In this document: one piece after another, positions 56,106 to 59,991 of the stretch
How positions within the stretch are numbered: position 1 is the first letter of the stretch
Layout: every line of letters begins with the position of its first letter
Source of the DNA: Kaistella soli
GTDB lineage: Bacteria > Bacteroidota > Bacteroidia > Flavobacteriales > Weeksellaceae
DNA: 64,000 nt
NCBI RefSeq assembly: GCF_019038595.1
Contig: NZ_JAHOPF010000002.1
Coordinates: 1 to 64,000, forward strand
Reading direction: 5' to 3'
Translations under genes and position numbers: made by a program
Notes under the pieces: generated by a model
What the model was told of the DNA's origin: nothing
What the model saw: the letters and a program-made list of their open reading frames with translations, nothing else
Databases searched by the model: none

Positions 56106-56936
56106 ATGAAAAAATTATTTGCAGGTGCATTCGCACTAATGGCAGTTACAATCGGTTTTGCACAGAATAACCATGATGTAACAACTCAGATGGGTAATCA
56201 AAACACAGCTAACGTTGACCAACACGGTAAGGAAAATTCCAATACCATTTATCAGAAAGGAAACCAGAACGAAGCAAAAGTATCGGAGTACGGTAGAAAG
56301 AACGTAAATAATACTGAAAGCCTTGGTGATAAAAACAAGGAATTAGTGTATCAAAGCGGTAAATCCAACGACAATGATACCTGGCAAAAGGGTGATAAAA
56401 ACTCTGCTACCACCAAACAGTACGGAGAATTCAATAAAGTTACCCAAAAACAGAAAGGTGACAATAACTCTGTTTACGCTTTACAATGCGGCGATAAAAA
56501 TATTGCGATGCAAAATCAAAACGGTGATCATAATAAATTGACATCAGAGCAATATGGAGATAACAACAATGTTAATCAAATGCAGAAAGGTGATCGTAAT
56601 AGTGCTGATGGATGGCAAAATGGTAAAGGAAATAAAATTACCCAAAACCAGGATGGTGATCATAACGATGCCAAAGCAACACAGACTGGATATGACAATA
56701 AGATTACTCAAAAACAGGATGGTGACTGGAATAGAGCTATTGCCACCCAAACAGGTGACAGAAACACTATCAGCCAAACTCAACTTGGAAACGGACATTA
56801 TTCAAAAGATACTCAAGTGGGATGCGATAACAAGATTACTGTTTTACAGGAAACAAATCATTCCAATGGCGGCGATTGCTGTGCACCTCCAATGCCTCAG
56901 CCAAAATGTAACCAGCATTCAGGAGACGGTTGCTAA
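56106..56936 (+). CDS. csgA: Major curlin subunit (CsgA-like), 20 repeat units with a Cys-rich tail
   Basis: The 276-residue secreted amyloid subunit has a signal peptide ending near residue 19. From Gln28 to residue 247 it consists of 20 consecutive 11-residue units with no gap. Their consensus is Q-x-G-[DNK]-x-N-x5, which is half of the curlin repeat, so 10 curlin turns. In known curlins the Q and N ladders stack in the amyloid beta-solenoid. The tail (248-276) is not repeat-like and carries Cys258, Cys259, Cys268 and a C-terminal Cys276, plus prolines. Two further Cys (128, 240) sit in repeats. E. coli CsgA has five repeats and no such tail. It is the first gene of the operon. Confidence 0.9.
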   Translation: MKKLFAGAFALMAVTIGFAQNNHDVTTQMGNQNTANVDQHGKENSNTIYQKGNQNEAKVSEYGRKNVNNTESLGDKNKELVYQSGKSNDNDTWQKGDKNSATTKQYGEFNKVTQKQKGDNNSVYALQCGDKNIAMQNQNGDHNKLTSEQYGDNNNVNQMQKGDRNSADGWQNGKGNKITQNQDGDHNDAKATQTGYDNKITQKQDGDWNRAIATQTGDRNTISQTQLGNGHYSKDTQVGCDNKITVLQETNHSNGGDCCAPPMPQPKCNQHSGDGC

Positions 56937-57016: not shown

Positions 57017-57421
57017 ATGAAAAATTTATTTTTAGTTAGCATGATTTTATGTAGTTTTTTGATGAGTGCACAAAGCATTGATTTTGGCAATATCAACAGT
57101 CAAAATATTTTAAATATCCTTGCTGCCCCGGAAACGAGTCCTTCTGCGGTGTCTTCAAAAACGTCAGTTACACAGTTAGGAAATAATAACAATGCTATGA
57201 TTTATAATAAAAGTAAAAGAAGTGATTTAATGATTCGGCAAACGGGTGATTTTAATACCACTTTGATGACTAACACTAATCCTCATTTGGAAAACAAACA
57301 GAAAGTAAATGTTGAAGGCAATAATAATTATATCGACATTACAGGAAACAACAGCAACGCTAAAGAAATGCAGATCAATCTGAAAACCAACGACAAAATG
57401 ATTTTTGTCCGTCACTACTAA
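57017..57421 (+). CDS. csgB: Minor curlin-like subunit, probable nucleator (CsgB-like)
   Basis: The 134-residue secreted protein has a signal peptide (MKNLFLVSMILCSFLMSAQ) and a shorter, less regular set of curlin-type units: 'VTQLGNNNNAMI', 'IRQTGDFNTTLM', 'VNVEGNNNYIDITGNNSN'. In other curli systems the second curlin anchors and nucleates the fibre. That role is inferred here from gene order and divergence. The start at 57017 is chosen because the signal peptide begins there; the longer frame starts in the csgA end. It is separated from csgA by a strong hairpin. Confidence 0.8.
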   Translation: MKNLFLVSMILCSFLMSAQSIDFGNINSQNILNILAAPETSPSAVSSKTSVTQLGNNNNAMIYNKSKRSDLMIRQTGDFNTTLMTNTNPHLENKQKVNVEGNNNYIDITGNNSNAKEMQINLKTNDKMIFVRHY

Positions 57422-57439
57422 CTTTACTTTATAATAATT

Positions 57440-58177
57440 ATGAAAAAGTTTATTTTAAACCTGTGCTTCATCTTTCTCCTCATCTTCGGGATCAGTTGTA
57501 ACGCTCAAGATGCTCAAACGGTAACAGCAAAAATTGAAAGTGAAAATATAGAAGGAACACTCAATCTGAAGGCAGTTGCAAAAAACCAAGGTCAGGTACA
57601 TCAGTCACTGAATTATATTTTTCTTGCCGTAAAAAAGGACCGAGGAAAAAACATGTCCTCCTCCCAACAGCAAAATAAATTTACCCTACTTCCGAAAGAG
57701 AGCAAAATTCTTTCGGAAATATCTATTAATGTCAATAAGGACGATGCGCTGAAAGTTTATCTATTTATTAAAGATGAAAAAACCGCAAAAGTTATCGCAA
57801 AGGACAGTTTGGAAATGAATGCAAAAAGCTTTAAAAACAATGTATCCTATGAAAAAACTACCAATGAGGAGAATATGATGATGAAAGGTTTAATCATCAA
57901 TGAGACAAAAACTAGAATTGGCGACGATTTTTACAGCAGATTCTATTCACTCCTGATGCTGAATGCGATTGAGTTCGGTTTTAGAATCAGAGTTTCGGAG
58001 GTTCCTTCTACGGGTACAAACACACAACTTCAGATTTTTGCGGATGATGAGAATATTCTGACATTTTTTGCAAGGCCTGAAGATGATTATCTGGATGATA
58101 TCGTAAAAGAAACGATTGCAAGCCTAATACAATACGACAATGACCGGCAAGTCACCGATAAAGGCTTCATTTATTAA
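57440..58177 (+). CDS. csgE: CsgE-type curli secretion chaperone with an N-terminal CsgH-like domain
   Basis: The 245-residue exported protein has two domains after its signal peptide (about 1-23). The C-terminal part (about 148-240) is CsgE: 'GLIINETKTRIGDDFYSRFY', then 'TGTNTQLQIFADDENILTFFARPEDDYLDD' in parts. CsgE caps the periplasmic side of the CsgG pore and delivers substrate. The N-terminal part (about 28-130) is an all-beta domain, with 'SLNYIFLAVKKD' and 'SSSQQQNKFTLLPKESKIL'. It resembles CsgH/CsgC-type immunoglobulin-like inhibitors of curlin aggregation. E. coli CsgE lacks this part. The fold of the N-terminal domain is inferred from pattern, not tested. Confidence 0.82.
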   Translation: MKKFILNLCFIFLLIFGISCNAQDAQTVTAKIESENIEGTLNLKAVAKNQGQVHQSLNYIFLAVKKDRGKNMSSSQQQNKFTLLPKESKILSEISINVNKDDALKVYLFIKDEKTAKVIAKDSLEMNAKSFKNNVSYEKTTNEENMMMKGLIINETKTRIGDDFYSRFYSLLMLNAIEFGFRIRVSEVPSTGTNTQLQIFADDENILTFFARPEDDYLDDIVKETIASLIQYDNDRQVTDKGFIY

Positions 58178-58191
58178 CCAAAAATAAAATT

Positions 58192-58587
58192 ATGAAAACA
58201 CTTGTTTTTTATTTTGTCTTTGGGGTTAGTTTTGCCTATGGACAGCAGTTTGTTTATAAACCGGTAAATCCTGCTTTTGGCGGAGATACCTTTAATTACC
58301 AATGGCTTTTAAGCTCTGCTTCCTCGCAAAATCAGTTCAAAGGAACTACCTCAGATTTCGGCTCACTCAGCACTCTGGACAGCTTTACAGAAAGCCTGAA
58401 CAGGCAGTTATTGAGCCAGTTATCCCAAAAGCTCTTCGGAGATCAGTTTGGGAGCGGAAATTTAAAACCGGGGAATTATACCTTCGGTTCTATGTACATT
58501 CAAGTTACACAGTCTGACAAAGGATTATTAGTAAGAATTTTAAATACAACAACAGGTGAACAGTCAGAAATCATAATCCCGAACTAA
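58192..58587 (+). CDS. csgF: Curli accessory protein CsgF
   Basis: CsgF plugs into the CsgG pore and places the nucleator at the surface. The 131-residue protein has a signal peptide ('YGQQF', cleavage about 17). The CsgG-binding N-terminal motif is present as 'FVYKPVNPAFGGDTFNYQWLLSSASSQN' in parts, matching the 'NPNFGG...LLNSAQAQN' pattern of E. coli CsgF. A C-terminal beta domain ends 'TTGEQSEIIIPN'. Length is normal. It sits between csgE and csgG with about 13-nt gaps. Confidence 0.92.
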   Translation: MKTLVFYFVFGVSFAYGQQFVYKPVNPAFGGDTFNYQWLLSSASSQNQFKGTTSDFGSLSTLDSFTESLNRQLLSQLSQKLFGDQFGSGNLKPGNYTFGSMYIQVTQSDKGLLVRILNTTTGEQSEIIIPN

Positions 58588-58599
58588 AGAATTAATATC

Positions 58600-59991
58600 A
58601 TGAAAAAGTTTTTAACAGCCAAAATTATATTGCTCCTTACAATATTAGCAGTAATGGGAAGTTGTGGCACAATGATGAATCTTCCTGCTGAAGGTGATAC
58701 TTCCACTTTAGGAGAAATGACACCTTACACTAAACAACTGAAAGAACTCCCTGCTCCAGACGAGAAAATTGTAATCGGAGTTTACAAATTCAAAGACCAA
58801 ACCGGTCAGTACAAATTAGCGGAAAACGGCAGCAACTGGAGCACCGCAATTCCACAGGGTACCACCTCCATTTTATTAAAGGCATTAGAAGACAGCAAAT
58901 GGTTTCGCCCAATCGAACGGGAAAACATTGGAAACCTTCTTAATGAAAGACAAATTATACGTTCTACAAGAAAAGAGTACGAAGTAGCCAAAGACGGAAA
59001 AACGGTGATCAGTGACCAGCTCCCACCGCTGCTCTACGCCGGAATTCTTCTTGAGGGTGGAATTATTTCTTACGATACCAATGTAATGACTGGCGGTATT
59101 GGAGCCAGATATTTTGGTATTGGCGGAGGCACCCAATACAGACAAGATCGCGTAACTGTTTATCTGCGGGTAGTCTCGAGTATGACCGGCGAGATTCTAA
59201 AAACAGTATATACATCCAAAAACATTCTTTCGACAACGGTGAACGGAAGCTTTTTCAGATACATCGATACTGACAGAATTCTGGAAGCTGAAATGGGGTT
59301 TTCCCAGAACGAGCCCGTCAGTTTAGCAGTTACTCAGGCTATTGAAAAGGCGGTGTATACCTTAATTTTAGAAAGCGTGCAGGACGGAACTTTCAGAATT
59401 GAGAAAGTTCACGAAAAAGAGATGATGGACCTTCTTTCAAAATATCACGCCGAACAGGAAAAAAACACTAATCAACTGGTCGGAAATAAGTTTGCAGATA
59501 AGGAAAGATCTAAAGCATCGGTGTTATTCATGGCCAACGGAGACTTAATAAAAGGCGATTATACAAATGCAAAAATGAATATTGGAGGAAAAGCGGGCTT
59601 CAAATACTTTTTAACACACCACCTGAACGCTGAAATCAGTGCGGGGTTTGAAACCCTTCAAAATAAAGATATCGTTAGAAACAATTTCATGTACACTGAT
59701 CTTAACCTGGAATATCTTCTTTTGCCAAAATTTACTCTTTCTCCATATGGTTACATTGGCTTGGGTTCGATGTTCAACGGTAAAAATTTTCTGAAATATC
59801 AGTTTGGAGGAGGGTTAGAATATTTGGTAGGCAGCAATCTCGCTTTACGCCTAAACGCGCAGTATGACATGGGTTTTGATGATACCTGGGATGAATTTAC
59901 CAATGGTAAAAGGAAAGATCAGGCATTTCATATTGGTGTCGGGATTAATTATTACCTAAGGCAGGCGAAAAGACTAAACACAAAAAAATAA
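58600..59991 (+). CDS. csgG: Curli secretion pore CsgG with an extra C-terminal beta-barrel domain
   Basis: The 463-residue outer-membrane lipoprotein (lipidated Cys22 in 'VMGSCG') is much longer than E. coli CsgG (277). Residues about 25-285 are CsgG: 'SNWSTAIPQGTTSILLKALEDSKWF' in parts, 'NLLNERQIIRSTRKE', 'GGIGARYFGIGGGTQY' and 'SFFRYIDTDRILEAEMGFS'. CsgG forms a nine-subunit, 36-strand pore. Residues about 300-455 form amphipathic strands with aromatic ends ('GGKAGFKYFLTHHLNAEISAGF', 'FQFGGGLEYL'-like, 'FHIGVGINYYL'), the pattern of an 8-strand OmpA-like barrel. In the constriction loop, Asn55 of E. coli is kept, Phe56 is Trp and Tyr51 is lost. Confidence 0.92.
   Translation: MKKFLTAKIILLLTILAVMGSCGTMMNLPAEGDTSTLGEMTPYTKQLKELPAPDEKIVIGVYKFKDQTGQYKLAENGSNWSTAIPQGTTSILLKALEDSKWFRPIERENIGNLLNERQIIRSTRKEYEVAKDGKTVISDQLPPLLYAGILLEGGIISYDTNVMTGGIGARYFGIGGGTQYRQDRVTVYLRVVSSMTGEILKTVYTSKNILSTTVNGSFFRYIDTDRILEAEMGFSQNEPVSLAVTQAIEKAVYTLILESVQDGTFRIEKVHEKEMMDLLSKYHAEQEKNTNQLVGNKFADKERSKASVLFMANGDLIKGDYTNAKMNIGGKAGFKYFLTHHLNAEISAGFETLQNKDIVRNNFMYTDLNLEYLLLPKFTLSPYGYIGLGSMFNGKNFLKYQFGGGLEYLVGSNLALRLNAQYDMGFDDTWDEFTNGKRKDQAFHIGVGINYYLRQAKRLNTKK

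Follow-up and report, generated by a model that had tools for sequence, protein, structure and literature searches.

A CsgG curli exporter from Kaistella soli and its relatives in Bacteroidota with a predicted OmpA-type outer-membrane barrel fused to the pore subunit

The stretch of DNA analysed here, hereafter the window, comprises 64,000 nucleotides of Kaistella soli (Weeksellaceae, Flavobacteriales; NCBI RefSeq assembly GCF_019038595.1, contig NZ_JAHOPF010000002.1, positions 1 to 64,000 of the forward strand) and contains a run of curli genes in which the product of csgG is drawn out at its C terminus into what is predicted to be a second membrane domain. CsgG, through which the amyloid fibres known as curli are exported (type VIII secretion), is a pore of solved structure, assembled from strands contributed by many subunits and widely used as a sequencing nanopore. 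The features of the locus, in window coordinates, are as follows.

56106..56936, plus strand: csgA-like curlin, 276 aa, with nine matched repeat stretches (Pfam Curlin_rpt, E=5.3e-23)
57017..57421, plus strand: csgB-like curlin, 134 aa (Pfam Curlin_rpt, E=3.4e-4)
57440..58177, plus strand: csgE, with an N-terminal CsgC/CsgH-like domain (Pfam CsgE, E=2.2e-10 at residues 148-237)
58192..58587, plus strand: csgF (Pfam CsgF, E=2.2e-37)
58600..59991, plus strand: csgG, curli exporter with a fused, predicted C-terminal barrel; ATG start, 463 aa
58600..58665, plus strand: signal peptide and lipobox, residues 1-22, lipidation of Cys22 being expected from the sequence motif only
58747..59391, plus strand: CsgG pore fold, residues 50-264 (Pfam PF03783, E=8.5e-65; PDB; Foldseek)
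59398..59484, plus strand: C-terminal helix, residues 267-295, running past the end of E. coli CsgG (AlphaFold2)
59485..59514, plus strand: linker to the barrel, residues 296-305, nearly without indels
59515..59955, plus strand: predicted eight-stranded OmpA/NspA-like outer-membrane beta-barrel, residues 306-452 (AlphaFold2, Foldseek, PF13505, alternation)
59878..59916, plus strand: last predicted extracellular loop of the barrel, residues 427-439, with conserved residues
59996..61507, plus strand: putative lipoprotein downstream of csgG, with CarboxypepD_reg, fn3 and a TolB-like propeller

Judged by its sequence, the ORF at 58600-59991 is the curli exporter of a csgA-B-E-F-G operon, a context confirmed by the adjoining csgE, csgF and curlin repeats. 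Its product scores 218 bits against Pfam PF03783 (cut-off 20.8), the top structure found by Foldseek for the CsgG part is 4uv2, and Cys22 is conserved in all 61 aligned homologues. With E. coli CsgG (PDB 3x2r, 4uv3, 6l7a) it shares its lipoprotein nature, the CsgG fold at residues 50-264 and an operon with csgE, csgF and curlin genes. At the constriction of the pore, the position of E. coli Phe71 is occupied by W80 and the aromatic character is kept (W or F in 60 of the 61 homologues), that of Asn70 by N79 (N in 25 and S in 26 of the 61), while Tyr66 is not kept, the aligned residue being A74 here and mostly S or A among the homologues.

Other products of the locus have peculiarities of their own. 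The csgA-like protein continues past its curlin repeats into a cysteine-rich tail, GGDCCAPPMPQPKCNQHSGDGC (window 56868-56933). The N-terminal domain of the csgE product matches NCBIfam CsgH (E=3.5e-7 at residues 30-114) and CsgC (E=3e-5); a 2012 curli survey described csgC as missing from Bacteroidetes (PMC3521004), and a CsgH subfamily in Bacteroidetes is mentioned by a 2016 paper. In other loci of Weeksellaceae and Flavobacteriaceae, too, csgG is followed by homologues of the TolB-like lipoprotein, and deeper lineages have shorter genes that match it.

E. coli CsgG (PDB 3x2r) aligns with residues 13-283 of the Kaistella protein (E=8e-65) and no further, so that about 165-180 residues exceed the known CsgG fold, in agreement with an initial annotation of this DNA, which had noted some 165 residues beyond it; the E. 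coli protein ends at residue 277, whereas that of Kaistella has about 170 further residues, predicted to form the barrel. Structure prediction of the monomer, which that annotation had proposed as a check, returned a closed eight-stranded barrel (AlphaFold2), with strands 1-4 at residues 306-318, 327-337, 342-355 and 359-373 and strands 5-8 at 380-392, 396-409, 414-426 and 440-452. These strands are nearly identical in the full-length model, built with a ten-sequence alignment, and in the extension folded alone. The full-length model has a mean pLDDT of 62, its local confidence being higher in the extension than in most of the CsgG part and low in the linker block 291-300, and a pTM of 0.47, which makes the orientation of the domains in it unreliable; residues 265-463 folded alone reach a mean pLDDT of 80, with most of the barrel at 88-95 and the helix 267-295 in front of it. 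In Foldseek searches of the PDB, the whole model retrieved CsgG first, followed by NspA, OmpA, OprF, Ail and OmpX, and the extension was matched foremost by OmpA, NspA, OprF and Ail; NspA was matched at a TMt of 0.70-0.77.

Residue patterns point the same way, and the profile match is marginal. Against the Pfam family PF13505 (OMP_b-brl, cut-off 28.7 bits), residues 294-463 alone score narrowly above the cut-off, with 29.8 bits, and residues 265-463 (28.6 bits) and the whole protein (25.9 bits) both below it; the domain is found in eight of ten homologues, with a best E of 2.5e-9. Hydrophobicity alternates along the strands of the extension, averaged over the 61 homologues, to a degree equalled by one in 20,000 within-strand shuffles, compared with 13,035 in 20,000, that is, no alternation, for the strands of the CsgG core, in a test whose independence is limited because the strands were delimited from the structure model. 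When no borders are set, 4 of 5,000 shuffles surpass the lag-2 minus lag-1 autocorrelation of the mean over the 61 sequences, and 209 of 5,000 surpass that of the Kaistella sequence on its own. The last strand carries aromatic residues, as in BAM substrates, and ends 2-13 residues from the C terminus in most homologues. With the OmpA/NspA/OmpX-type barrels of PF13505 the extension shares its fold, the number of eight strands, their alternation, the short turns on the periplasmic side and an aromatic C-terminal strand, but it differs in sitting at the C terminus of a lipoprotein that builds a multi-subunit pore. The known barrels of this type are, to our knowledge, separate proteins or accompanied by a periplasmic OmpA domain, and a Pfam scan found no periplasmic peptidoglycan-binding OmpA domain in the csgG product. 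Structure prediction, fold search, profile, alternation and conservation (see below) support the fusion of an OmpA-like eight-stranded barrel to CsgG that had been put forward in the annotation, and we regard it as very probable that this predicted barrel is real and located in the outer membrane.

The architecture is widespread. CsgG is matched in 74 of 197 genomes from the family of the window, and the match spans the extension in 73 of them; in the remaining one it stops at residue 215, the open frame being 225 aa long. In a sample of the phylum, 52 of 395 genomes gave matches: 41 to core and extension, one of which aligns only to residue 394 in a frame of 486 aa, ten to the core only, all under one family code (f18), and one to the barrel only. 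A chlorosome protein was found in all six of the ten core-only genomes that were examined, and their lineage is therefore taken as Chlorobiaceae; every one of the 41 other genomes of the phylum sample with a CsgG core has the extension. Conservation in flavobacterial CsgG, which had been named as a check, is therefore borne out by the 73 of 74 family genomes, but the scope was drawn too narrowly, as the extension is found across Bacteroidota (in the GTDB sense). Among the matches listed in plasmid records, only those in Spirosoma, Hymenobacter and Salinibacter are full-length, the annotation of the Salinibacter protein saying no more than CsgG/HfaB family protein, and the listed CsgG proteins of proteobacterial plasmids end at query residues 261-301, without the extension. 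Identity within the family is 0.50 for the extension and 0.76 for the core, and at phylum depth roughly 0.2 versus 0.6; on these sequence comparisons, the extension evolves faster than the core, yet wherever dN/dS was measurable it proved to be under purifying selection. A fusion created by sequencing error or frameshift was rejected, the same architecture being present in more than 100 genomes. The Kaistella genome has nine matches to PF13505, this barrel among them, and a search of it with a profile of the extension found no paralogue, on which ground a recent duplication of another of its barrels was rejected as the origin.

The barrel also occurs without the pore. The barrel-only protein of the phylum sample, of 224 residues and with a signal-peptide-like N terminus, is encoded between a glutamine-synthetase-like and a purM-like gene, the pair that in fused relatives encloses the whole csg operon. 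A family-wide search yielded further barrel-only genes. Of 27 Flavobacteriaceae genomes with such genes, 26 are missing CsgG, the single exception being fragmented and of 80% completeness. The standalone protein matches the same outer-membrane family as the fused barrel, and a standalone barrel of a csg locus (for example L069:4995-5669) is homologous to the csgG barrel by sequence and nested in its tree, but has a Sec-type signal peptide of its own and a genome without CsgG. In the tree, 26 standalone barrels form one clade (support 100/99) placed inside the fused Flavobacteriaceae barrels (100/96). Since this clade is nested among fused forms and 26 of the 27 genomes are without CsgG, the barrel is autonomous and has in these genomes survived the loss of the pore, and the gene phylogeny indicates that in this lineage of Flavobacteriaceae the domain came free of an ancestral fusion and was then kept. 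The reverse order, with a barrel-only ancestor and a later fusion to CsgG, is not favoured, given that the 26 lie within the fused clade and that fused forms occur phylum-wide. Survival without CsgG also means that, at least in that clade, the role of the barrel is not purely one of pore support.

Six measurable pairs have dN/dS values of 0.07-0.23, which are rough since dS exceeds 1 in all six. In the standalone clade many residues of strands 1-4 are fixed that vary in the fused form, which may reflect a new role; conversely, conservation at residues 294-297 and at the periplasmic turn near 372-378 is stronger in the fused form than in the standalone one, which might be expected if these parts touch CsgG. 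Two loci stand somewhat apart. At L125:6227-6799, a barrel-only ORF without an in-frame signal peptide, which falls elsewhere in the tree, adjoins a TolB-like gene where the csgA-csgG core is missing, and may be a relic, or a sign that part of the operon was lost recently. In a genome devoid of CsgG, the csg locus (L115:6223-8240) holds a tandem pair of standalone barrel genes.

How the fused barrels would be arranged depends on the oligomer. The CsgG nonamer has been solved for E. coli (PMC7304575, PMC6957492), and we assume by analogy that Kaistella CsgG is nonameric too. With idealised radii, standard barrel geometry and parameters of our own choosing, nine eight-stranded barrels placed around a barrel of 36 strands have a neighbour spacing of 32-36 A, and as this exceeds their diameter of about 26 A, they would fit sterically with lipid-sized gaps between them. 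Having an even number of strands, such a barrel has both ends in the periplasm, the side expected for the C terminus of CsgG. Across the 61 homologues the helix and linker (residues 274-305) show almost no indels, which suggests a fixed position of the barrel; Y282 and E285 are conserved within the C-terminal helix, and R303 of the linker is present in 54 of the 61. On these grounds it is plausible that nine barrels ring a 36-strand pore, and a ring-like arrangement of the barrels around the pore seems to us moderately probable.

The explanation that we find best overall, and hold with somewhat better than moderate confidence, is a CsgG variant in which each subunit bears an OmpA-type barrel and the barrels make up a covalent collar anchoring the exporter. 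The CsgG parts would assemble into the usual nonamer, with the helix and the nearly fixed-length linker keeping each small barrel beside the 36-strand pore; the nine barrels would form a membrane collar that anchors and orients the exporter and would display their conserved loops at the cell surface; and CsgG, CsgF and CsgE would most likely export curlin as in E. coli. That anchoring, rather than reception, is the main role of the barrels is put forward only tentatively.

The main rival accepts a real barrel in the outer membrane but has it act chiefly at the cell surface, as a receptor or a place of docking for curli fibres, for CsgF or the nucleator or for ligands, the ring being incidental. 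It draws on the predicted extracellular residues D428, G436 and position 431 (D or E), which are invariant in 61 of 61 homologues, and on G319-D320-Y321, kept in most, and it is strengthened by the persistence of standalone copies without CsgG under purifying selection, which implies that the barrel is useful by itself, at least in the standalone clade. However, most of the top conserved loop residues recur in standalone barrels without curli and so are not specific to curli, several of them may be structural, and the loops are short, so that we consider this reading unlikely, if the foremost of the alternatives. Somewhat less likely still is that the barrels sit in the outer membrane loosely tethered, or paired with other proteins, without an ordered ring, or that the oligomer is not a nonamer: the linker block is of low model confidence, the nonamer we used is that of E. 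coli, and CsgG homologues are expected in various oligomeric states according to a review (PMC4389571), but the scarcely varying length of helix and linker would be unusual for a floppy tether, and the stronger conservation of 294-297 and 372-378 in fused barrels is what contact with the CsgG body would produce.

Neither prediction nor Foldseek nor alternation pointed to a soluble beta domain in the periplasm or to a disordered tail, the outcome that the initial annotation had said would speak against its proposal; the marginal Pfam score could be read in favour of this outcome, but with matches mostly to outer-membrane barrels, with strong alternation and with the barrel-only form hitting the same outer-membrane family, we deem it highly improbable. 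Least credible of all is that the extra strands widen the central pore, which, being built by many subunits, could in principle admit more, for the model matches closed eight-stranded barrels and barrel-only proteins occur without any CsgG.

The collar model also bears on membrane insertion. E. coli CsgG is independent of BamA, which is "likely advantageous" for oligomeric assembly according to a 2026 review (PMC13067283), whereas an OmpA-type barrel should require BAM, and the two insertion routes therefore seem to conflict. We propose that the barrel would be inserted by BAM and that the pore part would self-insert after Lol delivery, in which case one polypeptide would use both routes. Whether exporters throughout the phylum combine all of these features, a covalent ring of nine barrels, BAM-independent together with BAM-dependent insertion and a barrel kept after loss of the pore, we regard as evenly balanced. 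A partial precedent is the outer-membrane channel of the Legionella Dot/Icm system, which PMC12857230 describes as ringed by porins (Yue et al. 2025), and one such porin (9nh2) was also matched by the extension in Foldseek. Small barrels around a secretion channel are common to both, but the likeness is one of analogy only, the Dot/Icm porins being separate proteins around a type IV system and the barrel here being covalently part of each pore subunit.

The CsgG pore and the OmpA-type barrel are each known, and their fusion is apparently undescribed: no paper reporting it was found in a literature search that left most subscription journals outside its reach, and domain databases may list the combination. 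CsgG size was found to be unaffected by curlin size in the 2012 curli survey (PMC3521004), and NanoporeDB (2026), with its 3,608 CsgG pores, trimmed its sequences to the ends of the reference structures prior to modelling (PMC13397529). The Bacteroidota version of this solved pore carries a second, predicted membrane domain. With an OmpA-type barrel on a pore subunit, how two insertion routes act on one chain becomes directly testable, and the fusion would offer a genetically linked counterpart to the unexplained porin rings of the Legionella Dot/Icm system (PMC12857230). Natural barrel-only relatives, in turn, provide a means to separate the role of the barrel from that of the pore.
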